From contig OX359191.1 of NCBI GenBank assembly GCA_947172415.1, positions 310,001-374,000 of the forward strand: a stretch of 64,000 bases of DNA, in the 5' to 3' direction. A model generated the notes under the pieces. That model saw nothing but the letters and a program-made list of their open reading frames with translations, had not been told where the DNA came from and did no database searches. Below are positions 12,373 to 57,446 of the stretch, one piece after another (position 1 is the first letter of the stretch; each line of letters begins with the position of its first letter). The DNA comes from Chondrosia reniformis (Eukaryota; Porifera; Demospongiae; Chondrillida; Chondrillidae). A program made the position numbers and the translations under genes.

Positions 12373-15662
<3,290 letters not shown>

Positions 15663-26447: not shown

Positions 26448-29400
26448 ATGAAGATTCTTGCTATTAGCGTTATTATATTTAATTGTATCGGGGTTATCTT
26501 CACCCAGGAAGAATGTCTCTCATCATGTCTTAAGAGTCCAACTACATCACCCAAGTAAGTTCTTCTCTTTAAATGTAGTCAACCTCTCTATAGTGGTGAC
26601 CTATGGGAGTGAGACTAGGTAGTCTTTATACAGTCAACCTCTATGTAGTGGTGACCTATGGGAGTGAGACTAGGTAGTCTTTATACAGTCAACCTCTCTC
26701 TATAGTGGTGACCTATGGGAGTGAGACTAGGTAGTCTTTTTACAGTCAACCTCTATATAGTGGTGACCTATGGGAGTGAGACTAGGTAGTCTTTATACAG
26801 TCAACCATTCTATAGTGGTGACCTATGGGAATGAGACTAGGTAGTCTTTATTGGAGCGAGGTGATATAATCTAATAAAGATTAATTACCTAATGTGTTCT
26901 TCCTCTCATAATATCAGTATTATATATTATTGCTTTATTAAAGCCAACCACAGAATGCCATGTGATAATTAGTAGCTACTTCAAGTTCTATATACACTTA
27001 CATGGACAAATACCTATGTATCTCCATTAGCTCTACATGGTCATATACACACAGTATATAAACATATAGTATTATATATACGTATGTGTAGTTCATGATC
27101 AACCCTGATTCAGTTTTCCTGTAGCAAGGTGTTATTGTTTGCATGTGGGCAGTAGTGGTATTGCATATCAACTGCCCCTTAACTGCATCAGTTTCAGTTT
27201 CAAAACACATGTTCTCTTTGTCTTCTGCACATGGTCAATTGCTGTCCGTTATGGCATATGCATATATTCAATGCATGATCAATCACGCATGGGTATATAC
27301 TTATGTACGTATATACGTAATTGGAGGAAGATTTGAGGATCATTTTATCCTTATAGGATTAACTACTAACTACAGTAATCTGTATATTGGAAATATATAA
27401 GCTTTTGTCTAAAATTAATTTTTATATGGATGCAGATGTAACAGGTTTTAGTTTAATATCAATACTGTACAACATTGAGAAACTGCAAATATATATACCT
27501 ATGGAGCATTTAAATATTTAAATTCCATTAGTTGTCCCTGGAGGGTGTGTTCAAGTCTACGTTGTCTGTAAATTAAGATTCCCCCGGGTTACCAGCAGTG
27601 TCAACATGAAGCTACTATAGTGCCTTACAGAGCCCATAGCACCACCAGAGAACCACTAGATAAACATGTGTATGTGCATGGCTTAAAGGAAGATCAGGAC
27701 TTTGGAAATCCCCAACCACAAGTGTATCATAAATGTACACGTGCTTTTTCATCCATGTGTGTCTACCATATATAAATTAATTATATACAGACCTTTATTA
27801 AATTTATGGTGAGATAAGCAAGGTAGGTTCCAAAGATTCCTAAGGTTGAGAAGGGTAAATCCCTGTTATATTATGAGAAGGGTAAATCCGATCCCTGCAT
27901 GTCGTATTATACCTATGCAAGCTTTCATAATTCATAATATCATCTTACACACCTTATGTGTTGTATATAGTCATCTCCATAATATATAAGAATTGTTCTA
28001 CTTTTTATGTTTGGTCAGACAGCTATTTCTGAGAACCTCTAGATTCATCAGTGGTATGGGAAAATATTTTAGCTTTGTGGTCTGAATGTCCTGATCTTCT
28101 CTATCCTGTATCCTGCGACTATATATCAGTAGTAGAGCTCTATATATACGTATAGCAATGCTCATTATGGTATATGCCTGAATACAATAATAATCATCAT
28201 TTTCTTACATGCTACTGGACCTATACATGTGAGAGTTATGTAGGACAAGTCTATAGAGCTTTGGATGAGGATACAGTTGGACCTCTCTCTTAATTCCTTT
28301 TCTCCACTTCTCCACATACTCAAGTTGCTAGACTGTATTATCTTAATGGAAAATGTATTATCATTCAACAATTCTCTCTCTATACACATATAATTCTCTT
28401 TATACATAATCACAAATTTGTATTAAATGTTTTGATCCTGTTCTTATGTATGTAGTACTTGGAAGTGTTGTGATTGGAAGTTGAACAAGGAGGGTGACTG
28501 TGAGTCCACCCAATGCACAGAAGAACTTGGTATGGACTACAATAGTGGCATTGACATAGAGTTTGTATACCAGCCAGGGTTCTACATCGTTCCCAGGATG
28601 TATTATGATAAGTTCTCCTGCGTTTGGCACGTGGGCGACCTTACTAACTGTAGAACAGGCACTTTTATGATCCTCCAAAAAGATTTTCACATTAGAAATG
28701 TTAATGAGAGGTGTGAATGCGAGGACCATCTGGAAGTGAATTATAGGAACTTTCAAAGGGACTATCTTTGTGGTCCACAGGACTTACACAACTGTCCCAG
28801 CAGCAACTGTGTAGATATTCCAATAATTTCAAGTGAGTATATACACTTATATGTATATAGTGTATATATACGTACGTAGGGCATATATAGTTGTGTAATG
28901 AGTATTTACACGTATACGTACGTACGTACATACATATATAGTGTATATGGCACATATAGTTGTGTCATGAGTATATATATATATACAAATATATCAATGA
29001 ATGACCATGAACATATTGTAAGACTCTTCTCCGACAATCTCTGATCATTTTCCAAGTTTAACAATTACTTCATCAGATACTCCAATGACAATCACCTTTA
29101 AGAGTGACTTGGAGGACTACAGCACCGGTTTCTTTGGCCTTGTCATCATCAGTAACATAAGAAACTGTCAAACCTCAGCGAGACACTTAAGACAGGTATC
29201 AGACGGTATACTGGACAATATAACTAATATAGTGGATATTGCCCCAAATATTTTGGAGGACATAGAAATCATTGAAGACAATTTGTGTGAAGTTATGGAA
29301 TGTGTAAGTATAGAAACCTCAAACACCACTCCTTATTGGTACATATATACCTCCTTATTGGTACATATATACCTCCTTATTGGTACATATATACCTCCTT

Positions 29401-30714
29401 ATTGGTACATATATACCTCCTTATACTGTAGGTATATACCTCCTTATACTGTAGGTATATACCTCCTTATTGGTACATATATACCTCCTTATACTGTAGG
29501 TATATACCTCCTTATTGGTACATATATACCTCCTTATTGGTACATATATACGTACTAGATGTACTATTATTCACACAAGAGATAGTAAAATATTTAAATT
29601 GATTAGTTAAGCATGTACGTACCTAGGCTATACTGATGATTTAATTATAGTTGTTAACAAATAACATATGCAGCTGCTATATCAGTTCAACTGCTACTTC
29701 CTCACACGTTTCTATAGTAATAGTTTTGAGATAATCAAATTTGACAAACCTAATTAATTAAAGATGCAGTCTCAGCGCTTCATCCAACCACAACCAGTAG
29801 TCATGTGTATGATCCCTTAAATATACCCCTTCACAAGTAGACATAGTCCCAATGACTGTACCCCATGTACGTATATAGTTAATATACATACATGTAGCTA
29901 TGGTATTAGATATATATTAATAGATGTGTGTGTATACATGTACTACATGATATAATATGTACATGTTTCTGTTCCATCCTGTACTGTAGGCTTGTGATGG
30001 TTCCTGTATTGTTGAAGGTGGTGATGTGAGTTTATATGCAACTAAATTAGCAAGGAATTAATATAATATAATGTAGGGAGATGAAATCCTTAAACATATT
30101 ATAAGTTGAACAAAAACATGTGTATATATATTATATATAGACAGGAGACATACTGTATATATATATAATAGATTTATTGATCTTTGAGTTTTAATATAAG
30201 TCTAATTTGGAGATGGATTGATTTCAATTGAAAGTATATACGTAGACAAGTTGGCAATGTCTAACACAATTAGATTAGAGCTGTGATGTATGTTCTTACC
30301 ATTCCTATATACATACATATTTATGGTTTGATCTCTACAAAAGGAACAGATTTCAATTTGAAGCCTGGCAGTTTAAAAGTTTAAAATAGGTTTCATGTTG
30401 CATGAGAATTTGTTCTGTACGTGTATGTATCTTATGATGCTCTCAAGTTGCATAAGTCAGCTACAATATATATAAGTACAAATGCTGCATGCGATGTAAC
30501 TGGATGATATTCACTTTTTCAGGGCTATTCCAACTTCACAGATATTGAGATGGAAAAGGCAAGAGAGATTACCTTCAGCAAAACCATTCACCTGGCCTAC
30601 GCTTATGCTAACTCACTAAACATATTTTTAAGACGAGTTTCCAGAAAGTGCATCAAAAACTGGGACCTTTATGGAACAATCATTCCACCTTGGTCACTAC
30701 TGGCTGGCTGCTGA
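26448..30714 (+). CDS. Secreted CUB-like protein, array member A
   Basis: Exons: 26448-26554, 28456-28832, 29077-29303, 29990-30025, 30523-30714. The signal peptide is MKILAISVIIFNCIGVIFTQ. Exons 2-3 encode a CUB-like domain: YQPGFYIVPRMYYD, CVWHV, GTFMILQKDFHI, CECEDHLEVNY, YLCG, then ITFKSD and GFFGLVII. Exon 3 ends on a Cys codon and the tiny exon 4 starts A-C-D-G-S-C, giving the array signature C-x-C-x-G-x-C across a phase-0 intron. Exon 5 has the C-terminal domain in diverged form (LAYAYANSLNIFLRRVSRK, YGTIIPPW) and no repeat tail. CUB domains bind proteins or sugars outside cells. It is the most diverged member, and exon 3 to exon 4 lacks a clear furin site. Confidence 0.72.
26570..26850. 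repeat. ~60-bp tandem repeat, five copies, in intron 1 of member A
   Basis: Units contain ctatagtggtgacctatggg and agtgagactaggtagtcttt with small length variation. Confidence 0.9.
28012..28056 (-). ncRNA. Hammerhead-like core, diverged family-B copy
   Basis: On the minus strand: CTGATGA, a stem-loop segment, then GAAA, two bases, a short loop and GTC followed by TGACC. The order matches the family-B cores at 46644 and 50260 but the stems are weaker. A partial family-B tail lies at about 28190-28320. It lies in intron 1 of member A. Confidence 0.4.
29330..29555. repeat. 21-23-bp tandem repeats, two interleaved types
   Basis: Units tccttattggtacatatata and tccttatactgtaggtatat alternate in the intron after exon 3 of member A. 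The open frame through them is an artefact. Confidence 0.9.
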
Positions 30715-31355: not shown

Positions 31356-34312
31356 ATGTCAGCTGAGAAGAAACTACTTACAACTTTTGGAGTGGGTTTA
31401 TTGATCATTTGTTGGTGTGGAGGACCAGCAGATGGTGTTAGCAGCTATTCTGGGTGTCTTGAAAAAGATGCACCTCCAAAGTACAGCTACATATACATAC
31501 TGTATACGTATATATGTAGTTATTATATATGAATTATATATATAATTGTGATTAGATAGTCTGTGGTTAATTAAGCATCAGCCACAGACACAGGTTTGAA
31601 TATATATATTATCAGCAAGATGGATTGACTTCAATATTGAATTGTTTAAATATTTTTGGTGACGTTTGTACGTACCTATTGTGCATGATCATATCAAATT
31701 AATAACAGTATACATAGTACTACTTCAAATATTGTGTTTATATACAGGTGACACTCTATCGTCAATTATTACATTTTTATATACAAACATACTGTACAGT
31801 ATATATATAATAATAATAGCTTCCCTCAAGTCTCTGAAAGATATATAATATTCACACCTTTGATCTACAGATATGCAGTATAATATATTCATGAATAATA
31901 TTATAGTTTCTTTTTACTGTTTGTTTTAGCTTGAATATATATATTTAATTTCTGTGTGTGCATGTGTTCCAGTACCATGAGATGTTACAACTGGACAATG
32001 TGCGGAAATAATACATTTGAAGACATGATTTATGACAACTTTACTCTCCTAACGAATACCTCTTGTCTCAACGATACAACTGAATGCTACTTCACTCCTT
32101 CTGTGTTTCTGGATACATTTGTAGACTACGCGGGAGCTGACTTCATCCATCAACCAGGTTATCTGGACTACGGTTATGCAGATCAGTACATGTGTGCCTG
32201 GACACTAACACCTACTGTAAGTATACGTATATGAAGTCACATATATATACGTAGTAGTTACGTGTGTATACAATATTACACAATGCCCAATAGAATTTTT
32301 ACCTTACTAATTAATTTAATTTTTGATCAAAATATGAAGCCACCATCTTAATTATAATCCTGTAAACCAGTCATATTATTTCGGCACCCAAACTTGAAAT
32401 ATGTACATTGGTCAGAAGTTCTCCATGTATACCACATACGGTACATGCATATACGTACATGCTTATATATTTCTTATATGTCTTCAATCTACCTAGAGTC
32501 CATACAATGCATTGCTGTTTCTTTTGCAAGATAAGGATTTTGATGCTGTAGATCCTGCCAATGGGAAAGACTGTAAAATTAAAGATCACTTGGAAATTAA
32601 ATATCAAGAAACTAACTATGACACTTATTGCGGGAATAATCTTGCCAATGATTGCTACCTTTGTAACTGCTATCCTCCATTTGGAATAATATCAGGATTT
32701 GGCAACAGTAAGTAATTAGGAAGGGACTGCAGAGAAAATAATATTACTAACATTTCTACTATATGCTCAATAGAATAGGGTTCCTTATAATAGTAAACAG
32801 AACATACACAATATACAAGCTCTTGAATTGATCTCCCCAATGCTTTCCAATCTCCAATGGTCTCCATTGTTCTCTAAAGTTATGCTCAAAAAATTAATTG
32901 ATGAGGCATATAAAAATATATTAATTTAATCAGTACATTTTGTATATGTATACGATCCTATATACATTTTGCATTACAATTTAATACATGTTGTAATTAC
33001 TTATACTGTATATAGAAAAGCCAGATATTAAACTGACATTTCGAAGTGATGAATATAGTTATGGCGCAGCTAAAGGATTTTTTGCTGTGGTCATAAACAT
33101 GCAGATCAATGTACGAAAGAGGGAGCTACCAACACAGTCGGATGCATATGACATCCCTATAGCAGAGCTCTATGGAAGAGATTACGCAGCAATCTGTAGA
33201 GAGGCCCTGTCAGAAAGACCAAGTAGCCAAAAGTATAGGGAACTGAGGCCCACCATCACCACGGCAACACTTGAAGAGGAGTTCAGATCAAGAATGTCAT
33301 GTGTAAGTCCTAACTTGAGTTTATTTGACGTAATGAAACACATGCAATGATGGTACGTACGTATGTAGAGTGCATGTACATATATATCATGTGTAGATGT
33401 GGTTTTACATGCATTGATTATATATTATATATATATGTGTACATTTGAAAAATTAGTATTCAAATATATATTCTTTTGACTATTTTGTAGAGATGCTTTG
33501 GGAACTGTACAATATCATCACGTGTCAGTTCAATGATTATAATTATATGTGCACACATTTAATCACATACGTATAGGTATATACAAATAGAATTCATTGC
33601 TATAACTAATCCTGTGATTACGTATATGCTAAAACATACACTCTTACACATCTGAAGGACTCACAAAAGATCAAAGAGAAGACAAAGATTCCCAAGGTCA
33701 CTAATGAAGGGTGGAATTCCCAAACAACTGTCTGGCCCAGTGGAGATGAAGAAGGAGAAACCTCTTGTATCCTCATCCAAAACTCTCACTAGGTTTAGTT
33801 CCCTATAGATAAATATATAGCATGTAAGAAAAATGGTGTATATTGATAATATAATAATGCATTCATATTGTACCTATACATGCATACGTATACACTTTTC
33901 CTATTTATTGTATATACAGTACAGTCATAACACTTGTATGGGTATATATAGCATTACATTTCAAGTGTACATAATATCCTTTCAGGATGCTGCTAGGCTG
34001 CGAAGCACCATTCAAGATATTATTACAGACAGGACCAGTAGAGTGGCTTACGCTTATGTAAACTCAGATAGCGTTATCCTCTATCATGTAGCAAGACGAG
34101 CTCTCACTAATCTCAAGGTTTATGGCACAACTTTGCCTACAGTGTGTCAGAAGTGTGCTCGTCAGCGAAGGATTTATGATCAATGTGTGACTAATATGAG
34201 GTCTTGCAAAGCTACAAAGCTATTGAGTGAAATAGAAGAATGTGCAGATTGGTCCGAAACATGTATTAGAAGAGGATGCGGGGAACCTCCACTTTGTGAC
34301 TTCTGTGACTAG
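31356..34312 (+). CDS. Secreted CUB-like protein, array member B
   Basis: Exons: 31356-31480, 31973-32216, 32497-32707, 33016-33302, ~33491-33521, 33986-34312. The signal peptide is LLTTFGVGLLIICWCGG. CUB-like core: FIHQPGYLDYGYADQYMCAW, LLQDKDFDAVD, CKIKDHLEIKY, YCGN, then LTFRSD and GAAKGFFAVVI. A basic site (VRKREL) follows the CUB part. Exon 4 ends on Cys and exon 5 begins R-C-F-G-N-C; the donor of exon 5 is weak. The last exon has VAYAYVNSDSVILYHVARRA, LKVYGTTLPTVCQKC and a Cys-rich tail ending CGEPPLCDFCD. There is no Pro-rich tail; the terminal cysteines may be disulphide-linked. Extracellular function is unknown. Confidence 0.76.
33655..33840 (+). mobile_element. Dispersed family-B element (plus orientation)
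   Basis: Shares the order gacaaagattccca - hammerhead-like core - cccagtggagatgaagaag - tcctcatccaaa - aggtttagttccct - gcatgtaagaaaaatggtgt with copies at 43228, 46508 and 50107. The core (33695-33738) is mutated (CTAATGA). It sits in the intron before the last exon of member B. Confidence 0.65.
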
Positions 34313-34416
34313 ATAGACTAGTACTGTTCATTATAACTCTTCTATATATGCACATCTACATATATAGCACACACATATATATATATCGTATACCTATATA
34401 TATGATGGACTATATA

Positions 34417-34518: not shown

Positions 34519-34997
34519 TATATATGTGAATTTTATCAATCAATTTAATTGTATTTGCAGATCTTTAGTCTTCTTGTATATCAATCAATCAATCAATTAA
34601 TCAAGGTGGGATCGATGGCCTATTAGCCAAATTAGCTACTTTACAAGGAGCAATACAGCCTTAAAGTTTCATAATGTTTTGACTTTGCAAAATGAAGAGT
34701 CATGTATTATGTTTAAAAATTCTAAATAGTATCTATACGAAGATGAAGTGATGTGGTATTTTAGAAGTGATTCAATTTCATTACAGAAGCCTTCCGAAGC
34801 TGCACATTTAAAGCTAATTATGATATGACATTGTATGATTGTAATGATTCCGGTATGCATGGATATGCTTAAGCACTTAAGATGGCTGACATATACAATG
34901 TTTTTACTATTTAATTGTTATAATATTTATTAAGTGGAACATGGTCACAGCAGGAAAATACATGTATATATATATAATCACTAGTTCTATATATACA

Positions 34998-37567
34998 CCA
35001 AAGAACTGGTCTCCTCTGGTCTCATATACACCAAAGAACTGGTCTCCTCTGGTCTCATATACACCAAAGAACTGGTCTCTTCTGGTCTCATATACGCCAA
35101 AGAACTGGTCTCCTCTGGTCTCATATACACCAAAGAACTGGTCTCCTCTGGTCTCATATACACCAAAGGAACTGGTCTCCTCTGGTCTCATATACACCAA
35201 AGCACTGGTCTCCTCTGGTCTCATATACACCAAAGCACTGGTCTCCTCTGGTCTCATATACACCAAAGCACTGGTCTCCTCTGGTCTCATATACACCAAA
35301 GGAACTGGTCTCCTCTGGTCTCATATACACCAAAGCACTGGTCTCCCCTGGTCTCATATACACCAAAGAACTGGTCTCCTCTGGTCTCATATACACCAAA
35401 GGAACTGGTCTCCTCTGGTCTCATATACACCAAAGGAACTGGTCTCCTCTGGTCTCATATACACCAAAGGAACTGGTCTCCTCTGGTCTCATATACACCA
35501 AAGAACTGGTCTCCTCTGGTCTCATATACACCAAAGAACTGGTCTCCCCTGGTCTCATATACACCAAAGGAACTGGTCTCCTCTGGTCTCATATACACCA
35601 AAGCACTGGTCTCCCCTGGTCTCATATACACCAAAGAACTGGTCTCCTCTGGTCTCATATACACCAAAGCACTGGTCTCCTCTGGTCTCATATACACCAA
35701 AGAACTGGTCTCCTCTGGTCTCATATACACCAAAGCACTGGTCTCCTCTGGTCTCATATACACCAAAGAACTGGTCTCCTCTGGTCTCATATACACCAAA
35801 GGAACTGGTCTCCTCTGGTCTCATATACACCAAAGGAACTGGTCTCCTCTGGTCTCATATACACCAAAGAACTGGTCTCCTCTGGTCTCATATACACCAA
35901 AGCACTGGTCTCCTCTGGTCTCATATACACCAAAGAACTGGTCTCCTCTGGTCTCATATACACCAAAGCACTGGTCTCCTCTGGTCTCATATACACCAAA
36001 GAACTGGTCTCCTCTGGTCTCATATACACCAAAGCACTGGTCTCCTCTGGTCTCATATACACCAAAGAACTGGTCTCCTCTGGTCTCATATACACCAAAG
36101 AACTGGTCTCCCCTGGTCTCATATACACCAAAGAACTGGTCTCCTCTGGTCTCATATACACCAAAGAACTGGTCTCCTCTGGTCGCATATACACCAAAGC
36201 ACTGGTCTCCTCTGGTCTCATATACACCAAAGCACTGGTCTTCCCTGGTCTCATATACACCAAAGCACTGGTCTCCTCTGGTCTCATATACACCAAAGCA
36301 CTGGTCTCCTCTGGTCTCATATACACCAACTGGTCTCCTCTGGTCTCATATACACCAAAGAACTGGTCTCCCCTGGTCTCATATACACCAAAGCACTGGT
36401 CTCCTCTGGTCTCATATACACCAAAGCACTGGTCTCCTCTGGTCTCATATACACCAAAGCACTGGTCTCCCCTGGTCTCATATACACCAAAGAACTGGTC
36501 TCCTCTGGTCTCATATACACCAAAGCACTGGTCTCCCCTGGTCTCATATACACCAAAGCACTGGTCTCCCCTGGTCTCATATACACCAAAGCACTGGTCT
36601 CCCCTGGTCTCATATACACCAAAGCACTGGTCTCCTCTGGTCTCATATACACCAAAGAACTGGTCTCCTCTGGTCTCATATACACCAAGAACTGGTCTCC
36701 TCTGGTCTCATATACACCAAAGAACTGGTCTCCTCTGGTCTCATATACACCAAAGAACTGGTCTCCTCTGGTCTCATATACACCAAAGAACTGGTCTCCT
36801 CTGGTCTCATATACACCAAAGCACTGGTCTCCCCTGGTCTCATATACACCAAAGCACTGGTCTCCTCTGGTCTCATATACACCAAAGGAACTGGTCTCCT
36901 CTGGTCTCATATACACCAAAGAACTGGTCTCCTCTGGTCTCATATACACCAAAGCACTGGTCTCCTCTGGTCTCATATACACCAAAGAACTGGTCTCCTC
37001 TGGTCTCATATACACCAAAGAACTGGTCTCCTCTGGTCTCATATACACCAAAGCACTGGTCTCCTCTGGTCTCATATACACCAAAGCACTGGTCTCCTCT
37101 GTTCTCATATACACCAAAGCACTGGTCTCCTCTGGTCTCATATACACCAAAGCACTGGTCTCCTCTGGTCTCATATACACCAAAGCACTGGTCTCCTCTG
37201 GTCTCATATACACCAAAGCACTGGTCTCCTCTGGTCTCATATACACCAAAGCACTGGTCTCCTCTGGTCTCATATACACCAAAGAACTGGTCTCCTCTGG
37301 TCTCATATACACCAAAGAACTGGTCTCCTCTGGTCTCATATACACCAAAGCACTGGTCTCCCCTGGTCTCGTATACACCAAAGCACTGGTCTCCCCTGGT
37401 CTCATATACACCAAAGCACTGGTCTCCTCTGGTCTCGTATACACCAAAGCACTGGTCTCCCCTGGTCTCATATACACCAAAGCACTGGTCTCCTCTGGTC
37501 TCATATACACCAAAGCACTGGTCTCCCCTGGTCTCCATTGGTCTCCCCTGGTCTCATATACACCAAA
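34998..37567. repeat. 33-bp minisatellite, ~77 copies, 2.6 kb
   Basis: Unit ctcatatacaccaaag + (a/c/ga)actggtctcctctggt, mostly 33 bp with 34-bp and a few shorter variants. Because 33 is a multiple of three, long open frames appear on both strands (884 codons on plus); they consist only of the repeat and start or end at its edges. Each unit has GGTCTC twice. It lies between members B and C. Confidence 0.97.
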
Positions 37568-37976: not shown

Positions 37977-39547
37977 GAAGAGGGCCGTGGAGTAGAATTT
38001 ACAGATCTGGGTACTGGAGTTGATATTGATGGTAAGCCATGGCCGCCAGCTCCAAATCCTTGTACTTCTGGAGATTATTTACAGATTGAAGCACAAGGAG
38101 GTATAAACAGGTATTGTGGAGATATGGACGATTATGATATATATGAATATAGCTGTAAGTTATCATATAAAACATGCATTATGTATGTATGTATGTATGT
38201 ACAGTACAAGATATACAAGATTCTACAGTTATGCAAAACTGCAATTCAGATATACATGTATAGGGCTGGGTGCTGTTGAATTTTTATATCTTGGCTGATC
38301 ATATATATATATCTATGTAAACTGAATAGTCCAGCCTAATTGCATATGTATGTACTATGTGTGATTATCATATTAGAGCCTTTGCTTAGTGCAATTACCC
38401 ACACAGCCCTTCTCAATACATATATTACATGTCTACTTCTCTGTTGTGTATATAGGTGATAGGATGAGATTAGCATTTAGCAGTGATAATACTCCTGAAG
38501 GGAATGGTGTCGGTTTTCATGGAATGCTATATACAAATGCACCATCCTGTGAAGAGAATTTAAGACGTGAGAGACAGGGAAGACCAGTTCAAAGTTATAA
38601 TCGCATACCAGTTCCAGTAGCCATCATTGGACAACCTTGCCGATATAGGTATACAGTACGATGTGTAAGTCACAAAGTGCTTATATAATATTATTAGCTC
38701 ACAAAGTGCACATACAGTATATATATAACTAAATTAGATTCTAATGTATGATCAGAAAGTATAATATTATTCCTTTATCAAAAGAGCTAACTTTCCTATA
38801 TACGTATAATTTATGATTATTATTATTATTATTATATATATATATAAAGCTCACATAATTCATTTTATCTTTGATATACATATATATATGCATGCAATGA
38901 TTTTCATGGAATATAAAAGTATAGTTTTTTATGTGCAATATTTAAAATGTATATACAATCTCCATATTCTCCATATACAGAGATGCATTGGGACATGCAC
39001 AACAAATGCCATGAATCTTCAAGTAAACACAAAAATATATGTAAAACTGATAATGTATGCATACCTATGGCTATAGCTAGTCAAACTTACATAACTTGTT
39101 CCTTCTACATAGGACCAGGAAGTACGAGGCAACCTCACTAGAATACTTTCAGACAGAAGTGGAAAAACAGCTTACTTCTTTGTTAACTCTCCAAACTATT
39201 ACTTGAGAGAAGGAGCCAGGAGAGCCAGAATAAATGTGCTGAACTTCGGAACCACTCTGCCTACAATATGTCAAAAATGCTGTCAAAGGCTACGTGAATA
39301 TAAGAAATGCTACTACAAAATTTCTGCCTATTTACGCTTGAATTCTTTCTACGTCAAAAGGATCTGTGGCTCCAGACCCTCTTGTTACGGGTGTAACTGT
39401 ACATCTTGCCCAACCCTAACGTGGCCTACCACCAGGTACACCAGACCCCCGCCAACCACCAGGTACACCAGACCCCCGCCAACCACCAGGTACACCAGAC
39501 CCCCGCCAACCACCAGGTACACCAGACCCCCGCCCCGGAGAGGTTGA
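37977..39547 (+). CDS. Secreted CUB-like protein, array member C (5' end missing)
   Basis: Exons found: 37977-38154, 38456-38664, ~38982-39022, ~39115-39547. It begins inside the CUB-like domain (EEGRGVEFTDLGTGVDIDG, CTSGDYLQIEA, NRYCG), then MRLAFSSD and GVGFHGMLY. A basic site (LRRERQGR) follows. Cys ends exon 2 and exon 3 starts R-C-I-G-T-C. The C-terminal domain reads KTAYFFVNSPNYYLREGARR and VLNFGTTLPTICQKC, then a Cys-rich stretch and four TRPPPTTRY repeats (27-bp DNA units). No start codon or signal peptide could be joined, and the 33-bp minisatellite lies just upstream, so the gene may be 5'-truncated or have distant first exons. Confidence 0.68.
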
Positions 39548-40610: not shown

Positions 40611-40617
40611 AAAAAAC

Positions 40618-41772: not shown

Positions 41773-44700
41773 TTATGCAGGAGTTAGGTCATTCACTGCT
41801 GCATATACTCCATATTTGGTCAACACTTCATCTGAGAGAAAATTCTTTGTAAAACTGACACTCTTCTCCCACAACTGCTCCTGAAAATGTTCATTCCTAT
41901 AAAAGTATAGATGTATGAAGGTACGTATATGCTGGTGTATCATATAAACTTGGGGAGAATGCTGTTACAGACACTAAATTAACAATAAGCTGAATTAGTT
42001 TTTATTTGATAGGCAAGGTTAGAAACACACTCCTCATTGACATACCGTGCATCTCGGCTTGTGGAGGAGGGACTGCAGTTGTCATAATAAAAACACTGTT
42101 CACTGTTGAGGTCCGGATGCAAGGCTGCATGCAAAGTAGTACAGGCACCCTGCTGGGAATTCTTTACACGACCTGTGTGTATATATGATAATTAAAGATT
42201 TGCGTCACTCAGGAAATTATAATATAATTAGAGGATGTACCCAGGGATAAAGCTAAGAGAATAATAGGATGTAGGATTTACTAAAACTATCTCTGCTATA
42301 TTTTTAACATGTATAAATTACTTATACAGCAGCTAGATAACAATACTTGTGTGTGTGTATATACTGTATGTATAACAACAGAAACACAAGGTCAATTGCA
42401 ACTACGTATATAATTTACCAAACAATTTCCCTAAAATTGCAAAAAACATGGCTGGTACATGGTCCCTAAAGTTTCTACTGAGCTCAGTCTCCACCTAATG
42501 CATGGAATAGTAGAAATATATCAGATACTTGATTTCAGTGACAGTTAAATTTGAGAACAACAGTAGAAAATTAAACAAGACTACATTTACCATTCCTGGA
42601 TGAACAGCGCTGACAGTTACTCCATGTCCTCTAAGTCTTCTTTGCAGAGCTAGGGCAGTCATTAGCTAAATACACAGTCAATAAAGCATGTACATGCATG
42701 TCATCTTGTCTATAGTCATTGGTGACTAACATTGAAAAGTTTAGTACTTCCATATTGTTTAATTCTGCTGTAATTCTGTTCCCCCTGAAGCTGCTCGGGA
42801 TTGAAGGGGTAAGCCAGTTTATGACCAGCAGAGGAAACAAACACAATTCTTGCATCAGGAGCAGAGGACAACACAACAGGAAGCAATTCAAGTGTCAACA
42901 GGAAGTGACCAAGGTGATTAATCTGAAGTACATAGGAAAAACTTAAAGCTGAAGTACTTTACACTAGGAATTCTTTGTAAGGTTTCTGATATAATATATT
43001 AGACTTTACAGACAAGATCTCTAACTCAATTAGACAATGCTATTCATATATGTATACGTAATATAGTGCTGTAGTCCTTTTCGACATACTTGGAAATGCA
43101 ACTCACAACCATCCTCTGTTCTACCTACAAAACACAGAACATATATACTATAAGTAATGCTAATATATATAAATAATACTTATACAATACAACCATTACT
43201 GTGTATAGGTAGGGAAGATAATACGCCAAGGACTCACAGAAGATCATGCAAGAAGAAGACAAAGATTCCCAAGATCAAGAAAAAGACAAAGATTCTCAGG
43301 GTCACTGGTGAAGGGTGAAATTCCCAGAAACAGCGGTCTGGTCCAGTGGAGAGGAAGAGTAAAAGGATGGCCCAGTAGAGAAGAAGAAAAGTAAAGGAGA
43401 AACCTCTTGTATCCTCATCCAAAGCTCTTGTAGTTCCTTATACTCTAAATTAGACGTATACCATGTAAGAAAATTGGTGTATTGATTATATATTCATGCA
43501 TTCATGATGTGCACATGTACAAACAACATTTAGGCAAACAGGCTTTTGAACATTTAGTGCTAAAATAATTATATTAGACATGAAGGAGTGTTCAGTTTGG
43601 AAGATTGAGAGCTCCCACTGTATATACTTCACTTACACACACACATACCTTCATGAACTAGTGCTACTCCTGCGTTGTTTATGAGAAGGTGAATCGGAAG
43701 ACTTCGCTGTTTGAAGTCCACAGTAAATTGCTTCACAGACTTGAGAGAAGACAAATCTAGCTCCATAAACTCCACATTAATGGTTTTATCAGGTTGTGCA
43801 TTAGACACTTCTGTGTGCATCCGTAATATTGCCTGTATAGAGGATGTGGACACTTATTTAGCAATTAATGTCAGACTATTCAAGATAATATATATATGTA
43901 TTAGAATAAGGATTTCTTCTAACTGCATCAAACTTATCTTTGGAAAGGGTCATCTTTCCACTTTGGGAGCGTGTCACTGAAGAAGACCCCCAGGGTCGAA
44001 ACATCTGGCAGAAAGAAGAATCAGAAAAACTGCGTCTCTAGATGCTCCCAAAGTCGAAAGGTGACCCTTTCCAAAGATATGTAAAAGACCTACACAATCA
44101 ATACATTCCTATGCCCTCTCATACCTATACATCATAAATGGGCATACATATATACACAATACATTAAGTGGTCAATATATATAGACATACAGATAGATAC
44201 AGAAAATGATGGTTTCAAACTAACAACTATACATTCTGAATGAATAGAAGTTTTCAAATGAATACCCTTGGATCTATTCATCGACATACATTGTAAAATT
44301 CCTACAAGCCATATATATCTACCTACGTATACATTACATGATTTCATATGATTACTGTATGGAGTAGGTATATGGTTTAAAATATAATTGTCAGTTCAAA
44401 TGAAGACACTATTATTAGACCGAGGTCTAAAAACTAAGCTTGCATGCATTATTATTTGCTAGCTTAAGTTTCTTATGTATATGAGGTTAAAGCAAATAAA
44501 TAAAGCTTGTAAATAAACACGTCCTTCACTGGCTTCAGGTCCATTAGTGCAAAACTGGCAGATTTGTATTGTTCATACAAAGCTGCACCTTATCTTACAA
44601 TTTTATCGCTTAAATCTCAAGTTTACAGTTTACAAGTGTCATTGAACACAAGTGCGGTGCATACACATAGTACTCTACAGACAATACTCACATCTTTCGC

Positions 44701-44850
44701 TCTCTCTTCACTTCTGCATGCTATAATGACATGTGCTCCCAGTAGCGCTAGTCCTTTGGCTGTTTCGTAGCCAATTCCAGTGTTTCCTCCAGTAACAACG
44801 GCTACCCTACCGCTTTGGTTCACCTCAGGATAGGTCAATCTTCCTCCCAT
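41773..44850 (-). CDS. Short-chain dehydrogenase/reductase (retinol-dehydrogenase/WWOX-like)
   Basis: Exons about 44695-44850, 43650-43835, 43078-43130, 42715-42925, 42590-42668, 42030-42175, 41773-41900. Classical SDR motifs are intact: cofactor site TGGNTGIGYETAKGLA with ACRSEERA (Arg after the second strand favours NADP(H)), acidic LDLSSLKSV, LLINNAG, catalytic Ser in VSSAGH and the active-site pair Y-G-S-T-K, then VHPGMV. About 300 residues, normal for the family. It likely reduces or oxidises a lipid or retinoid-type alcohol/ketone; the substrate is unknown. The ATG at 44850 was chosen because it directly precedes the Rossmann fold. It is the only minus-strand gene in the array that I can support well. 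Introns hold a family-B element (43228-43480) and an inverted-repeat element (43936-44078). Confidence 0.85.
43228..43480 (+). mobile_element. Dispersed family-B element (plus orientation)
   Basis: Full-length-like copy with tandemly doubled 'aagacaaagattcyca' at the 5' side, hammerhead-like core at 43299-43344, purine-rich middle and the tail tcctcatccaaagctct ... ccatgtaagaaaattggtgt. It lies in an SDR intron. Confidence 0.7.
43299..43344 (+). ncRNA. Hammerhead-ribozyme-like core (family B)
   Basis: GGGTCA / TGGTCC can pair as stem I with wobble pairs. The core is CTGGTGA (one change from CTGATGA), stem II about GGGT..TTCCC, then GAAAC, a short loop and GGTC at the expected cleavage position. 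Confidence 0.4.
43936..44078. mobile_element. Inverted-repeat element with hammerhead-like loop (family A type)
   Basis: 35-bp arms (atctttggaaagggtcatct... and its inverse at 44043-44078) flank a centre with CTGAAGA, a GACC..GGGTC hairpin and CGAAAC on the plus strand (43974-44003). The arms differ from those at 8.6 and 9.4 kb, but the centre is clearly related. Confidence 0.6.
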
Positions 44851-45860
44851 GTCGCTTGTACGCACAGTAGATCCTATATTGCGCAAAATGTTAAGATGGA
44901 GTATTCTCGACTGTGACTACGTTACTCGTCCTATTTGAGTCATTTATACATCACCTCGTTTGGATTCGGGAGTAATTGACAAAGCCATTGTAGATAATAG
45001 GCCCAGTTAGTGCTTTTCATTCATTGGTTGATTTTTAATCATGGAAGCGACCTTTTGCAAAGTCGAGTTGAACTTCATGTAAGAGCCTGTCTACCTACAG
45101 GACTTCTTAACAGTATAATATAGCTACATAGGACATGTCATTGGACATTGAGATTCTTAGATCATATCTGAATATCATGCAAGGCTGTCAGTAGTATTAG
45201 CTACATGGTACCTACGTATACTACACATTGCAATCACTAATAATTGCACCATACTGTGCTTAAGCTAAATTTCGTCCTATAGCTACAAAATTTTAATAAT
45301 ATATCCCAGTAATGTTTCTCTATTCCCCCACTATGTAGAATCCTTTCAAGGAACTGATAGACTATTACCAGTGCCAGTTGTGTGAAAGTGCTTCTTGTGT
45401 GTAATTATAAGACACATGTGTCTGACTATGAACACCTGGCATAGCCATTTGTGCAGACATACATCAACACAGAAAACCATTAAGAGCCATTGATAGTAAA
45501 TAGTAGTGATACCAACAAAGACAATGCCAATAGACAGGAAGACCTCACCTTTGTAACACTAAATTTATAATTATACCTTACCCTATATATTAATACAATA
45601 ATAATACAAGTTTACTAATGTGACATGTGTATATATATATATAACTATAACTACATAAATCTTGTCAGCAAAAATATACAGTATGTATGAGGTACAGTAT
45701 GTTTAAACAAAGGGAGGTCTACACATGTATATATACATATGAATACATACAATCCCTAAACAATGTTAGAGCTATACTTATATAAGAGAAATCTACTTGA
45801 TAGTTATAGAGTCATATACCCTGGAAAATCTATATACAGTATGTTGATGATTGTTTAAGA
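44851..45860. other. Spacer between SDR and member D
   Basis: No gene supported; AT-rich with TATATA tracts. It is presumably the divergent promoter region of the SDR gene and the upstream region of member D. Confidence 0.5.
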
Positions 45861-48443
45861 ATGAAAATGAAGATGTTGCTCCAGTTTCTTGTAGTATTAA
45901 GTTTGGGAGAATTTGGTAGAGGTCAAACCTTTCCATCTTGTGTCGACATTTCTTCCACAGCAGGGTACGTATGTTCAGAGTCTGCAGCAGTTGTTATTAC
46001 ATCAGTGAAGCAGTTAATTTCTATATACACTTCTCTGTATTATAAAGTATAACTTTTATACGTATTCTATAATTTACTTTTCTCTTTTACTTACCACTGC
46101 AGGTTTGTAAATTGTGCAAATTGGCAGAGAGCGAGAACGAGTGAAAATTGCTTATTATTCCCTTTGGAGCTCCCTATTGTGACTGAACCTGATGGTACCA
46201 GGTTTATCTACAATGATGGCTACCTAGATGACATGTATGCCAACAGTGTTGTCTGTGCTTGGACTGTACGGGCTAGTGACGAATGCAATCAAGTATTCTT
46301 TCTAGCTCTCGATAAGGACTTCGATTCATCTGAACCAGATAATGGAGAGGATTGTGCAAATCGTGATAATTTGGCAGTGGAAAATTCCCGAGATAGTTAT
46401 TGTGGTGGAGCTAGCGCTAACCAGTGTGCTTCAGGAAGAAACTGCCTTGGTGTATTCCAAATAGCAAGATTAAGTATGATATTTTAGTAATATAGTAATA
46501 CACATGAAAAATCTAAGATACTACATGCTATATGCCTATTCTGTAAAAGAGCCTATAGGGGAACTAAACCTGAAGAGAGCTTTGGATGAAGATACAGGAG
46601 TCTTTTCTTCCTTCTTTTTCCTTCTTTCATCTTCTTCTCCACTGGGTCAGACAGCCGTTTCTGGGAATTCCACCCTTCATCAGTGATCCTGGGAGTTTTT
46701 GTCTTTTTCTTTATCTTGATCTTCTGTGAATCCTTGGCTCTCTATAATACACATATATGCCACACTAGTTGATCCATGTAAAGAGATGTGTTTGAGAAAG
46801 CTTATCAAGCATCAGCAACATGGAAGTACTAGTTTTGGACGTTTCCACCCCAGCTAGAGGTCTTCACTATATGCTCAATAAGGCTTCAGTCTCATTATGA
46901 TTACAACAAGCACTCCTTATCCTTTCAGAAATGTGTTTATACACATATAGGTATAATAAGTGGCTTCAATTTACTCATAATATGTGTACAGTACAAGCAT
47001 TGTATACTCTCCAAAGTACTAGGATCCTTGACAAGTACATGTATATATAGGTATAGGTACTGTATATACATATGTAAGTAGTGCATACTTTCATATATAT
47101 AGGCACATAGATGGTACATTATATATGCATACCTAGCATATATACATAATTGAGTGTTGTTGATCACATTATTACATTTTATTGTCTAAAAGACCTTTAC
47201 AGCTTCTGTTTCTATATTAAGATGAGAACTTGGTACTGAAGCTACGTACCGATGAATCCAACACAAGTCCGCACAGAGGCATACTTGGTGTGACCTTTGA
47301 GGTACCAGATCCAAATTGCAATAGTCGAAGAAGGAAGCGATCATCTCGTTATGATGACTATCTTGTGCCACCGAGGCCATACTGCCCCCAACATCAGAGT
47401 AGATATAAGAAGAGTTATTATCCACCGTCACCACATAAGTACTATTACTACAAGCCTCCCTGTGTACGTCAGCCCCACTACACACACTCTCACTAACATA
47501 CGCAAAGTAACATATACAATTACTGGTATATATATTTGTATTGTATAACTTGCACATATGACTATACAGAAATGGCATTATATATATATATACTCTGAAA
47601 TTTAAATGACTTACATAACAATACACATCACTCCTATATGTCTACTGATGTTAGGCATGTACCTACATACATTAGAAATGAACTATACTTTGTGTGTATT
47701 ATATGTATGACATTGTATAAGTATAGAATCTTTGAGGAGGCATGATCATTATATTATGAAACCTTACACAATGTTACTGTATATATATCTTTCTCCAAAC
47801 AGGAGTGTTTTGGAAGGTGTACAGGAAGGAATCAGGTAAGCTCAAATACTACCCAACCGCAAGTTGGAATTGGAACTATGTATCTAGTTCTCCTGTAAGG
47901 ATGTTCCTTTCCCCTTTGCAGGCAGAAGAAGCCAGATTAGCACTGTTGATCATACAGGATTCAACAGGATGGAAGGCATGGAAGTTTGTGAATTCCCCTA
48001 GTGAATTCCTAAGGGGTGTAGCAAGGCTAACTTTGCAGAACATTCGAGTATTCAACGCTACACTTCCCACAAGAGCGCAGATCTTGAATCAATCCTGTCC
48101 AAGTTTTATTCCACTGCCAGAACCCAAATTCCGCAGAACACATTATCCTACAAAAATTTACTATCCCAAGCCTCACTACAAGCCAACTACGCAATACACC
48201 AGACCTCCACCCACCACCAGATACACCAGACCACCGCCCACCACCAGGTACACCAGACCTCCACCCACCACCAGATACACCAGACCACCGCCCACCACCA
48301 GGTACACCAGACCTCCGCCCACCACCAGGTACACCAGACCTCCGCCCACCACCAGGTACACCAGACCTCCGCCCACCACCAGATATACAAGGAGGCCCTA
48401 CACTAACACACGCCAACCATATAGAAATCAGTACCCGCAATAG
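45861..48443 (+). CDS. Secreted CUB-like protein with TRPPPTTRY repeat tail, array member D
   Basis: Exons: 45861-45964, 46103-46473, 47222-47463, 47803-47835, 47922-48443. The signal peptide is MLLQFLVVLSLGEFGRGQ. CUB-like domain: FIYNDGYLDDMYANSVVCAW, FFLALDKDFDSSEPD, CANRDNLAVEN, YCGG, then LVLKLRTDE and GILGVTFEV. A strong furin-type site (SRRRKRSS) follows, then a Tyr/Pro/Lys-rich linker (YYPPSPHKYYYYKPPC). The Cys ends exon 3 and the tiny exon 4 reads E-C-F-G-R-C. The last exon has WKFVNSPSEFLRGVARL and FNATLPTRAQ, then eight TRPPPTTRY repeats (27-bp units) and a basic tail. High Pro/Thr/Arg/Tyr content suits an extended or O-glycosylated extracellular segment. A family-B element lies in intron 2. 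Confidence 0.8.
46508..46738 (-). mobile_element. Dispersed family-B element (minus orientation)
   Basis: Nearly identical to the copy at 50107-50348 and alignable with those at 33655 and 43228. It contains the core at 46644-46689 and lies in an intron of member D. Confidence 0.75.
46644..46689 (-). ncRNA. Hammerhead-ribozyme-like core (family B, best copy)
   Basis: Minus strand: GGATCA pairs with TGACCC (five of six) as stem I. Then come CTGATGA, stem II from GGG..CCC around a GGAATT loop, GAAA, a two-pair stem III (AC..GT around GGCT) and C as cleavage base (GTC). Core nucleotides are intact except for A opposite A at the base of stem II, where G-C is usual. Confidence 0.5.
46795..46880. 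mobile_element. Degenerate family-A hammerhead-like fragment
   Basis: Minus strand has TGAAGACC, a hairpin and GGAAACGTCC, flanked by gcttatcaagcatcagcaac, similar in words to the 9.4-kb element. Confidence 0.4.
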
Positions 48444-50110: not shown

Positions 50111-50348
50111 ATGAAAAATCTAAGATACCATTTTCCTACATGCTATATGCCTATTCTGTAAAAGAGCCTATAGGGGAACTAAACCTGAAGAGAACTTTTG
50201 GATGAGGATACAGGAGTCTTTTCTTCCTTCTTTTCCCTTCTTTCATCTTCTTCTCCACTGGGTCAGACAGCCGTTTCTGGGAATTCCACCCTTCATCAGT
50301 GATCCTGGGAGTCTTTGTCTTTTCTTTATCTTGATCTTCTGTGAATCC
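50107..50348 (-). mobile_element. Dispersed family-B element with hammerhead-like core
   Basis: Copy nearly identical to 46508-46738; core at 50260-50305 with the same stem I, CTGATGA, GAAAC and GTC. The high identity of the two copies suggests recent spread or local duplication. Confidence 0.72.
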
Positions 50349-51284
50349 TGAATGAATGCATGTACAACAACACGTATAGAAATAGTGTATATCTTTTAGG
50401 TTGATCATCTTAAGTTGAGCCATCTGACACAGTTTGGCACATCGATATCATTTGTAGTTGTAATTCATCTATATAAAAGATATATATAAGTACATACACA
50501 AGTTCAATACAATTAGAAGAAATCTTTACTGCATATTATATAATTCTTTTAATACACTCCATATAAATGTGTGTCCAGTATATATCTATATAGTAGTGGT
50601 GTATTTGTATTTTGTATTACAATTTGCACTGTTTATATAATCAACCATACTGTACATGTGCATGGGTATATATAATAATAATATTCAAAAGATATATCTT
50701 TATGTATATAAAGATATTTCATTCGCCATAAACAGTCACCAATTAGAAGGAATTGATGACTAAGAACATATATATGATCATGACTAGACAGAGAAGTGTA
50801 TATTTGGTACATAGAGAATTTTCAAACATACACACACATACCCCATGCAGGAAATGCATTCCACATATAAGTGCATTATAAGGATGAAATATTTGTACTT
50901 GTGCCAGTGATTAACCTTTCTAGAATATTAGCTCCCTACACTGGCCAATATGTACAAATTATTACAGACCAAAGTCTAACTCTGTATACTGTATATTTAC
51001 ATATATAGAACAGTCTCATTAAAAATTATCGGAATTTCTAAATCATGTCTCAAAAATGCAATGTTTTTACACAATTTATAAAAGTAGACATATTAATAAA
51101 AATATGACAGTTGGAGTTAAGTGCACCAAGCCTTTATAGTGACTATGAGATATGATTGATATGATTAGCCAGGGTATAAGCAACTCTCATTTTTATTTCT
51201 AAATATTAAAATCCAATACTCAATCACGATATAACATTGAAGCTAATGCACATACTGTACTTATAGTTACATATACACATGGTC

Positions 51285-51400
51285 CAGTGGAGCAAAAGAA
51301 GATAGAGAAGACCCCTGTATCCTCATCCCAAGTTCTCTCAGTTTCCTTAATTTTTACAGAATAAGGGCATATATAGCATGCAGAAAAATGGTGTATTAGA
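51285..51400 (+). mobile_element. Partial family-B element (core missing)
   Basis: Begins at ggtccagtggag and runs through tcctcatcccaagttctct to gcatgcagaaaaatggtgta. It is 5'-truncated just after the point where the hammerhead-like cleavage site would lie. Confidence 0.55.
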
Positions 51401-51936: not shown

Positions 51937-53867
51937 ATGATTAAGTTACTAAAGCAACTGATTTATATTCACGTAATCCTATACACAGTGGTAGATTCTG
52001 AAAGCCAGCTTGATCAATTTGATATAGATGCCCAACCTTAGTAAGTATCTATTAGAAATGCTTGTATTATATATTTAAGACTCATTTTACCATAATATAT
52101 ATTCATACAGTATGTACACGCATACATATATGCTCTATATATATAGAGTAATTATATATGTAGCAGTTTATACAGATTATAATTGGTGTATATAAATACT
52201 AATTATGACTGTAGTATGGTTAGCTGTGCTCCAATCATTGACATTACGGATGAAGGTCAAGGGTTGGGACCAGTTATTGACGAAGTCTTCTACCCACAAA
52301 TGGGTGGTAGTGGGATGATCTACAGTATGAACTTTCAGGTTCCTCCATACTATTTTGATGGGTTAGTATGCTCTTGGAATATTCCAACTGATGACGGTTG
52401 TACTTGGTCATTCATACCAGTGAGGAAGGACTTTGATTCAGCTCCAGACCCATGTGACTGCTCTGAGACGGACCATTATGAAGTGGAGACTGGTAGCCAA
52501 TCCTTTACATACTGTGGATCACAGACTGATGTTTGCAATGTGCAAACATCTTCTACAAATATTGACCAACGATTTACTCTTTTTGCAGGTTGGTTAATAT
52601 TTTTAAGTTGAATATTTAAAATGTTTGTGTACATACTTTATGCTAAGTATTACCACAAATATATATGTATGGGCATTAAAAATGTTAAAAATATGTAATA
52701 TATAGGTATAGCCCATAGGTGAGGACTATAGCCGAAATGGTGTATAATAGATATGCCTGGGGCCCCATTATCAGCTCATTGCCATGGTAATGGGGTATTA
52801 AAGACGCCCATAAGTCGCTCTGTATATACATACATATGAGGTCCCTTGGTAGAATATATGTATTATACATACCATTATATATACGTATATAACTATATCA
52901 TACAGACGGTGATGGCTCAATTAAAGTGACAATGCGTTCAGATGATGATAACCAGAATGGAGTTGGATTTATTGGTATAGCACATTGTGGATCTTCCAGC
53001 AGGAAGAGGTCAATTTCTTCTTCCTGGAAAACTTACAGATTAAGTTGGACGGAGGCACAAGCTGAATGCAAGCAGGCCTGGACCAGTATGCAAAGTTCCA
53101 ACGACTATTACAACCCTCCAGAGAATACGATCCCTTGTGTAAGTGTATATTTTATACCTTGACAATCAATTAATGTACCATGCATGCATTATTAGGTGTT
53201 ATAGGAAATAACTAAGGTGGATTTTAAATTACATCAAAATACCATAACTTGAGTGTTACCACATGCACCATATTGCTTTCTACTTAATGGCTAATTGCCA
53301 TGCCATGACCATATATAGTATAGTAGTATATACACTAATTATTACATACTTGAACAATCTGTGATTTATATATTTATATATTTCTATCATGTATAGCATT
53401 GCAAGGGAGAATGTAATGTGAAATATGAATCACAATTAGCTATGGCTCTCGATGAAATCATTGGAGATAATTCTGGAGCTGTTGCCAAGAAGTTTGTAAA
53501 TTCTGAAAAAGATGTCCTAAGGGAAATATCAAGATTGTCTTTAGAGAACATCTGTCGATTTAATACTACAACACCTACATTTGCTCAACTCAACAGAGCT
53601 CAATGCCCAGACCCTATAAATACTTTTTCAAGGAATACCAGGCCCACCAGGCCCACCAGGCCCACCAGGCCCACCAGGCCCACCAGGACCACCAGGCCCA
53701 CCAGGCCCACCAGGCCCACCAGGCCCACCAAGCCCACCAGGCCAGCCAGGCCCACAAGGCCCACCAGGCCCACCTGTCCAAGCAGGCATGCCAGACCCAC
53801 CAGGCCCGCCAGGCCCACCAGGCCCACCAGGCCCAGTACAACAGCAATGCATACCCCTAAATATTAA
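51937..53867 (+). CDS. Secreted CUB-like protein with TRP-repeat tail, array member E
   Basis: Exons: 51937-52040, 52215-52588, 52916-53138, 53397-53867. The signal peptide is [23 protein letters not shown]-like part: [45 protein letters not shown], then [11 protein letters not shown] and [10 protein letters not shown]. The furin-like site is SSRKRSIS. The Cys at the end of exon 3 joins H-C-K-G-E-C; here the small exon and the last exon are fused. The C-terminal domain reads [20 protein letters not shown] and [15 protein letters not shown], then about 20 TRP tripeptides encoded by 9-bp DNA repeats and a stop. The TRP frame agrees with members C and D. The +1 frame of the same DNA would read collagen-like Gly-Pro-Pro. 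Confidence 0.8.
53630..53840 (+). repeat. 9-bp coding repeat (CCACCAGGC)n
   Basis: Codes (TRP)n in the frame of member E, (GPP)n in the next frame and (QAH)n in the third. GC content is far above the surroundings. Confidence 0.92.
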
Positions 53868-56277: not shown

Positions 56278-57446
56278 ATGAATCTATATGTTGTTATCCT
56301 TGTACTGGCCTGCTTCTCCATGGCAACTACACTGCCAAGTACCACATACGAGACTGGTAACGAAGCCCTGTCTCACTTCATGGATGGTGCAACAAGAACG
56401 GAAGACAGAGAAATGAGAGTTAGGAGAACCCATGTTAACAGTGATGAATTTGATTTTGATCTTGTGTCAGTGAATCTCACAGAGAATTGCATAAGACTAC
56501 TACTGAGTGACCCAACCTCGAGGAGGCTAGGAAGGAGAACCTACAGTAGTCTAATGTATAGGAGAGTATACAGTTACCTACCTTGTGTAAGTATATACAT
56601 CAGCATTACTTAAATGTTTAATATATAGCTATCTACACACATGTATGGCTATAACGTTGTATTATATATATACGTACAGAAGTAGATAAAAGCCACATAT
56701 ATATATGAATATGCATGCATGGTGGGGCATATATAGCTACAGTATTGAGATTCCTGTGGCTATAATTATGTATTTAACTCATAAAGTATATGCCATGTTA
56801 TATGTTTGTGTGTGTGTGATCATTTTGCATTAAAATTTATGATATCCCTCAATTTGTGTTACAGAAATGTTTAGGAATTTGCAACATTGAATCACCAGTG
56901 AGTTAAAGTATAATGAATTGTATCTATGCTTTAATGTATAAATATTTACATTGCAGAAGCAAATATATTTACAAATACTAGTAAAATTTAATACCAAAGG
57001 TTTCCACAATAATAAATACTAAACTGAATGGATTTTAATTTTTCTGTAAAATTTATCGGTGACTGACATATATAAATATTGATATCATGACAAATCTATA
57101 GGTCTGTATGTTTGTAAAATTAAATTCAGACACACATACAGTATATACGTTCATACTATCTGTTAAGCTTATGCGTATACGTATATGCTGCGCTGCATGT
57201 ACATGTTCGTTCTTATATATATATATATAGACCCAACTCCGAGAGGTTATTTTAGCTATTGTGAATGATGTCAGTGGTGATACTGCTAAAAAATATGTCA
57301 ACTCACCTGATGATGTAATAAGAGGATCAGCAAGATTGGCCCTTCGCAACATTGCACAGTTTGGGACCACTCTCCCCTCATTCAGCCAGCTGGCTTCAGC
57401 TGCTACCACAGCAACCACAGCTTCAACAACAAATGCTACACCTTAA
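56278..57446 (+). CDS. Small secreted protein with the array's C-terminal domain but no CUB, member F
   Basis: Exons: 56278-56586, 56865-56897, 57231-57446. The signal peptide is MNLYVVILVLACFSMATTLP. A short propeptide-like region with a basic site (EMRVRRTH) replaces the CUB domain. The Cys at the end of exon 1 (YSYLPC) and the tiny exon 2 (K-C-L-G-I-C) form the C-x-C-x-G-x-C signature. Exon 3 gives ILAIVNDVSGDTAKKYVNSP, ARLALRNIAQFGTTLPSFSQ and an Ala/Thr tail. About 186 residues. It shows that the signature plus the VNS/TTLP domain is a separate unit that works or evolves without CUB. A TATA box lies about 140 bp upstream. Confidence 0.8.

Follow-up and report, generated by a model that had tools for sequence, protein, structure and literature searches.

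What do six neighbouring genes of the sponge Chondrosia reniformis encode, and what might the C-terminal block that they share be doing? The DNA analysed here (the window, 64,000 nucleotides) is the stretch 310001-374000 of contig C3, in a genome of 117,379,552 bases and 15 contigs; the assembly is described as 14 chromosomes plus the mitochondrion, 117.37 Mb in all (PMC12181767). The six genes, A to F, form an array on the plus strand at positions 26448-57446 of the window. Four relatives elsewhere in the genome (G to J) carry short collagen stretches, so that the array would appear to be the branch of a larger family that is free of collagen. The explanation that we prefer, and hold with about as much confidence as doubt, is that A-F, arranged in tandem, belong as a collagen-free branch to a family of secreted extracellular CUB-collagen proteins, whose cysteine cluster and C-terminal block would associate chains.

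Six genes with a common C-terminal block

All gene models, A to J, were predicted from the genome sequence alone; those of the array were built by hand, with introns placed by GT-AG sites and open frames, and each of the six stays open until the single stop that ends it. A block of about 55 residues is common to A-F. When profiles were built from five blocks at a time and searched against the 2026 open reading frames (ORFs) of the window, the omitted block was recovered in six of six cases, with E values from 3.3e-7 (A) to 1.3e-20 (B); those for B-F were 4.6e-16 or better, and the top non-member lay at 0.26 to 1.4. Because each omitted block outranks every non-member, the similarity among the blocks is not due to chance. 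The models and the leave-one-out profiles agree with the first-pass annotation, which had reported a six-gene plus-strand array with a shared block. The residue pattern that it gave for the block was too strict, since the part D-x-[ST]-G..A..[FY][VA]NS fits four of the six members (C, D, E, F), A-R-x-x-L-x-N fits three (B, D, F) and F-[GN]-[TA]-T-[LT]-P fits four (C, D, E, F). In the alignment, the residues I, A, N-S, R, N and P are invariant across the blocks of A-F, and I, A, N-S and R across all ten blocks of A-J.

The first-pass annotation had also called the domain unrecognised, and had proposed a profile search of Pfam and a structure prediction as checks. The block has no match above cut-off in Pfam and no credible match in NCBIfam or the PDB, and a fold comparison against four chains gave one weak match. 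IL4Ra_N, DUF3716, Extensin_2 (on a Pro-rich tail), Spectrin_4, Toxin_R_bind_C and IL12p40_C were regarded as chance matches, being below cut-off or at E >0.01, as were three NCBIfam names that each matched one member only. The structure predicted from the six sequences is all-helical (helices at 5-23, 28-32, 39-55 and 62-66), with a predicted local distance difference test (pLDDT) score of 82.6. As modelled, the block is a small helical domain outside every known family tested.

The six genes combine the block with other parts in related ways. Gene A (26448-30714; exons 26448-26554, 28456-28832, 29023-29303, 29990-30025 and 30523-30714; intron phases 2, 1, 0, 0) encodes 330 residues with a signal-peptide-like start, a CUB-like domain, a cysteine cluster and the block, which is encoded by the last exon. 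Gene B (31356-34312; exons 31356-31480, 31973-32216, 32497-32707, 33016-33302, 33491-33523 and 33986-34312; phases 2, 0, 1, 0, 0) encodes 408 residues; it has an additional phase-0 intron within the CUB-like domain, and its last exon holds the block followed by a Cys-rich tail. Gene D (45861-48443; exons 45861-45964, 46103-46473, 47222-47463, 47803-47835 and 47922-48443; phases 2, 1, 0, 0) encodes 423 residues, namely a CUB-like domain, an RRKR site, a Tyr/Lys-rich linker, the cysteine cluster and, in the last exon, the block with a TTRYTRPPP repeat tail. In gene E (51937-53867; exons 51937-52040, 52215-52588, 52906-53138 and 53397-53867; phases 2, 1, 0; 393 residues), the block, predicted all-helical, shares the last exon with the rest of the cysteine cluster and a TRP repeat tail. 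Gene F (56278-57446; exons 56278-56586, 56865-56897 and 57231-57446; phases 0, 0) encodes 185 residues, with a signal-peptide-like start, an RVRR site, the cysteine cluster and the block in its last exon; no CUB-like domain was found in it. Gene C (37977-39547; exons 37977-38154, 38456-38664, 38981-39022 and 39113-39547) is a model whose 5' part was not located, and consists of a late-CUB fragment with a marginal score, the cysteine cluster and a last exon with the block and a TTRYTRPPP repeat tail.

Among the matches listed for the CUB profile (to about E 20), none lies on the plus strand between B and the first located exon of C. Directly upstream of that exon is a 33-bp minisatellite (34991-37535, plus strand; 77 copies, 96% matches), which is open in three plus-strand frames for 866-929 codons and which an ORF list would take as a giant gene.

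The exon phases are shared to a large extent. A phase-2 intron after the signal-peptide exon is the first intron of A, B, D and E, and a phase-1 intron lies close to the CUB end in A-E. The phase-0 GT-AG intron behind the first Cys of C-x-C-x-G-x-C, which the first-pass annotation had pointed out, is found in all six array genes. A further phase-0 intron separates the cysteine cluster from the block in five of the six and is absent in E.

The tails behind the block, (TTRYTRPPP)n in C and D and TRP repeats in E, are about 90 to 120 residues long in these three genes. The 9-bp repeat of E (53637-53835) encodes Thr-Arg-Pro in its own frame and would give collagen-like Gly-Pro-Pro if read in frame +1, and a frame-shifted collagen reading was considered. 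Silent codon changes are 4/15 for TRP, 3/13 for GPP and 2/14 for the third frame, the last counted unit being outside the repeat. Since these counts are similar, no reading frame is favoured; no frame being better conserved, the in-frame Thr-Arg-Pro reading was kept.

Dispersed relatives with collagen stretches

The six array members reported in the first-pass annotation stand, but they are not all of the family, which has four further copies elsewhere in the genome. The block of F searched against the whole genome gave two extra places, the block of B gave a third, and the A-F profile applied to flanking sequence gave a fourth. With an HMM (hidden Markov model) built from A-F alone, the four blocks of G-J are detected among the ORFs of 42 sequences, with E values between 1.8e-8 and 2.2e-10. 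The consensus block finds at least 10 places in the genome, a count to be taken as a lower bound, and the matches listed are all A-J; a place on contig C4, at E 4.2 in the block-query genome search, is absent from these matches. Complete gene models were obtained for G (C2, near 8.884 Mb), for H (C3, 137-139 kb) and for the close pair I and J (C3, 246-254 kb, minus strand). I and J differ at 51 nucleotides over 360 aligned codons, with a ratio of nonsynonymous to synonymous substitution (dN/dS) of 0.52-0.60.

The relatives have the same phase 2, 1, 0 exon plan and CUB-like domain as the array. Wherever the parts exist, the models keep a phase-2 intron ahead of the CUB-like domain, a phase-1 intron near its end and a phase-0 intron ahead of the block, with the exception of the cluster/block boundary in E. 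G-J end with the block, without an F-x-T-T-x-P extension, and their cysteine cluster has the spacing C-x5-C-x3-C, compared with the intron-split C-x-C-x3-C of the array. Family membership, the architecture of the models, the exon phases and the helical prediction are what the sequences themselves show.

In G-J, Gly-X-Y collagen triplets are located between the CUB-like domain and the cysteine cluster, and close to the N-terminus G, I and J have a further run, 3 to 8 triplets long. The longest runs are 5 (G), 8 (H), 9 (I) and 5 (J) triplets, and among 5000 shuffles of each sequence these lengths were reached by 2, 0, 0 and 15, respectively. The Pfam scan covered A-H, with D and E taken without their tails and G and H, the only relatives in it, each without the first exon; the Collagen family matched H at 34.3 bits against a cut-off of 27.2. 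At the junction from triplets to basic residues, Gly-Pro-Pro or Gly-Leu-Pro is followed by Ser-Lys-Arg in H, I and J, and Arg-Glu-Lys-Arg is found in G. A sequence search of A-F (C from its first located exon onward) found no Gly-X-Y run of three or more triplets. In its fuller form, as seen in G-J, a family protein starts with a signal peptide, followed by a short Gly-X-Y stretch (G, I, J) and a CUB-like domain; between one and three short stretches of collagen come next, then a dibasic site, the cysteine cluster and the helical C-terminal block.

Four members of the array (A, B, D and E) have a clear CUB-like domain, and G-J carry one as well. Of the five array members for which it had been claimed, four thus stand; C has only a marginal late-CUB exon (E 3.6e-4 among window ORFs; 0.35 and 1.9 among the ten proteins A-J) and F has none that could be found. 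Among the ten proteins, an HMM of the domain built from A, B, D and E detects G-J at E 1.1e-11 to 3.9e-8, and one built from G-J detects B (2.1e-11), A (6.4e-10) and E (2.9e-6) and does not find C (1.9) or F (1.5). Against the PDB, CUB proteins make up nine of the ten matches of the family profile (cubilin 2.2e-7, C1s about 3e-6) and all six matches of the CUB exons alone (cubilin 9.3e-7, C1s 0.002). The Pfam gathering cut-off for CUB was not reached, the best score being 19.3 bits versus 32 (PF23062, an exon of G).

Basic sites are less uniform. Five members of the array had been credited with a basic processing site, and release by furin-type cleavage had been proposed. A strict R-x-[KR]-R between the CUB-like domain (or signal peptide) and the cysteine cluster is present in D and F only; the sites are looser in B and E (R-K-R) and in C (R-R-E-R), A has nothing closer than R-H-L-R, and the sole strict match of B sits at the end of its block. 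All four relatives have a basic site immediately before the cluster, which is strict in G only. Furin-type release can thus appeal to a well-placed strict site in three of the ten family members (D, F and G), but not in the others.

C6 (3360380-3360490) holds the broken remains of a G-type CUB exon, disrupted by stops and frame shifts; the 6 kb of sequence covering this relic contains no recognisable block. It indicates that loss of copies does occur in the family.

A set of 5.8 billion proteins was searched with queries of 317, about 374 and 185 residues, and the only match was exon 1 of F from this same window, read on into the intron; such a genome thus seems to be represented in the set by exon-like open frames. 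Candidates were limited to 0.55-1.75 times the query length, and relatives of fewer than about 100 to 200 residues were out of reach, so absence from this set is weak evidence. One scan of bacterial and archaeal genomes with the block of H gave 596 pattern matches and no relative. No description of the family was found in the literature by title or start of abstract; a nonfibrillar Chondrosia collagen described in 2012 may overlap with it, in which case one of G-J might be that protein.

Several other features were observed in the window. A dispersed repeat of about 215 bp has copies at 46521-46734 (within an intron of D) and 50136-50349 that are 97% alike and a partial inverted copy at 43270-43367 (85%), and a similar stretch was seen by eye in an intron of G (L021, near 5400-5590). 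Duplicated exon-like stretches occur at 9755-9989 and 14316-14549 (90% identical) and at 10331-10824 and 15156-15655 (92% identical), and the ORFs of the gene to which they belong have no Pfam match at E 0.01. Two similar EGF-like repeats (12352-12696; 108-bp unit, 92% matches; Pfam EGF 1e-9) follow a signal-like start. On the minus strand, an F-box exon (17936-18250) precedes the array and a short-chain dehydrogenase exon (44623-44916) lies between C and D.

A possible chain-association module

Collagen trimerisation domains sit at the extreme C-terminus, behind the collagen. The cysteine cluster and block of G-J occupy this position, at the extreme C-terminus after collagen as in non-fibrillar collagens, which argues for a role of the two in chain association. 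In the mechanism that we envisage, three (or more) chains would meet via the block, and disulfides of the cysteine cluster would lock the associated chains. In G-J, this association would let the collagen segments fold, after which the module may be cut off at the basic site. For the array, we envisage that collagen was lost or never gained while the module was kept; its products would then be oligomers that are secreted or part of the matrix, most of them with a CUB-like domain, and with repeat tails that are Pro-rich in C and D and Thr-Arg-Pro in E. Oligomerisation, disulfides, processing, matrix location and the direction of change are what we infer from the sequences. Separation of collagen and module does happen in nature, since ctenophores are reported to have NC1 genes without collagen but with a signal peptide; NC1 of collagen IV is an example of a C-terminal collagen trimerisation domain (PMC5395295).

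The module was compared with known systems. Spongin short-chain collagens and collagen IV, with the NC1 domain (C4, PF01413), are sponge matrix proteins that likewise have a short collagen followed by a non-collagenous C-terminal module. The family block, in contrast, is about 55 residues long and predicted helical. PF01413 is not among the Pfam matches of A-H, and in the whole genome the C4 (NC1) domain was found only at C1:10.340 Mb. The family thus does not look like spongin or collagen IV. CTHRC1, reported to form trimers and to be present in Porifera, also has a signal peptide, a short collagen and a C-terminal domain that was long called orphan, but this domain has been modelled as a C1q-like beta-sandwich, unlike the all-helical block model, and the available text of that work mentions no CUB domain (PMC7058181). 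As far as the predictions go, the family is not CTHRC1-like in fold. The family also resembles CUB extracellular proteins (cubilin, C1s, TSG-6, neuropilin), with which it shares a CUB-like core and whose PDB structures its profile matched; it differs from them in that its CUB lies below the Pfam cut-offs and is joined to an orphan block and, in G-J, to collagen. FACIT collagens have a Cys pair at the collagen-NC1 junction. The cysteine cluster shortly behind the collagen in G-J is similar by description, although its C-x5-C-x3-C spacing and the other flanking domains are not. It is possible, though we lean against it, that helical block and cysteine cluster represent a class of C-terminal association module that is new for collagens and has no relation to C1q, NC1/C4, COLFI and FACIT; a sponge CUB-collagen family would have used this module, which was then freed from collagen and tandem-amplified as a general-purpose matrix oligomeriser.

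Several observations weigh against the reading of A-F as a collagen-free branch with an associating module. Some concern the domains themselves. The CUB HMM from G-J reaches D only at E 0.0072, PF00431 (Pfam CUB) was matched by one of seven members at E 0.044, and the PDB evidence for CUB is a sum of weak matches, the best single domain being at E 0.019 for C1s and 0.68 for cubilin. Pfam Collagen did not match G. By a crude measure, the hydrophobic moment of the block is high for helix 2 and mixed for helix 1, the value for E being unreliable. The block is retained in six genes without collagen, and because it persists there its job need not be collagen folding. Secretion, oligomers and disulfides are deduced rather than directly observed, and no homologue outside Chondrosia reniformis was found within the length-limited protein set.

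The trees add further points. G-J form a clade with support 98/95 in the block tree and 99/99 in the CUB tree, both unrooted. In the latter, however, the CUB of A groups with G-J (87/97), and in the former A, B and C split off (79/95); A in the block tree and E in the CUB tree have long branches, and branching within the array stays poorly resolved. The trees alone do not make the array one clade. We treat it as one branch because of its shared intron and form of cysteine cluster, not because of the trees. Collagen loss and collagen gain are both compatible with these results, because the trees are unrooted, branching in the array is poorly resolved and the CUB of A goes with G-J.

Alternatives and implications

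The most serious alternative is that the genes encode processed signalling or effector peptides, in which furin-type cleavage of an N-terminal pro-region would free a disulfide-bonded cysteine cluster and block that acts on cells. D, F and G have strict sites ahead of the block and B, C, E, H, I and J looser ones, which would fit such proteins, as would F, which is little beyond signal peptide, pro-region and block. Across both groups, block bit scores are about equal to those of CUB over about one-third of the length, which counts in the same direction. A, however, has neither a strict nor a dibasic site between CUB and cysteine cluster, the module is joined to collagen in G-J, and C, D and E carry their long tails behind the block; we consider this alternative unlikely. 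We regard it as distinctly unlikely that the genes are innate immune or microbe-binding proteins, collectin- or C1q-like, with the array as a set of diversified receptors in a microbe-rich sponge. Among soluble recognition molecules, oligomers linked by collagen are a familiar design, the CUB profile is similar to C1s and cubilin, and array members are strongly divergent. This divergence is that of old paralogues and no evidence of immune selection, and no lectin, C1q or protease domain is among the Pfam matches of the eight scanned proteins.

There is a slim chance that C, and perhaps F, are decaying copies and that the array has fewer than six working genes. C lacks located 5' exons, its CUB fragment is marginal and the 2.5-kb minisatellite lies upstream; the relic on C6 shows that loss happens. 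Yet C has four located exons that are open, join in phase and end in a conserved block, and F is open throughout with a signal-peptide-like start. A role in the mineral skeleton or in spicules, part of the matrix or skeletal role suggested in the first-pass annotation, is highly improbable. The proteins are apparently secreted and the tails of C, D and E are basic and repetitive, but Chondrosia reniformis is described as lacking silica spicules (PMC7459819), and G-J point to collagen. It is the matrix half of that suggestion that gains indirect support, through the short collagen stretches of G-J.

Chondrosia reniformis is studied for its body, which is rich in collagen and has a stiffness that cells are believed to control, and as a source of biomaterial (PMC5867623). 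The ten-member family with its CUB-like, collagen and helical domains provides candidate genes for the matrix of this sponge. If the module of cysteine cluster and block does associate chains, this would make it a compact tag for association that belongs to none of the known classes, and the collagen-free NC1 genes of ctenophores would have a parallel in the array.

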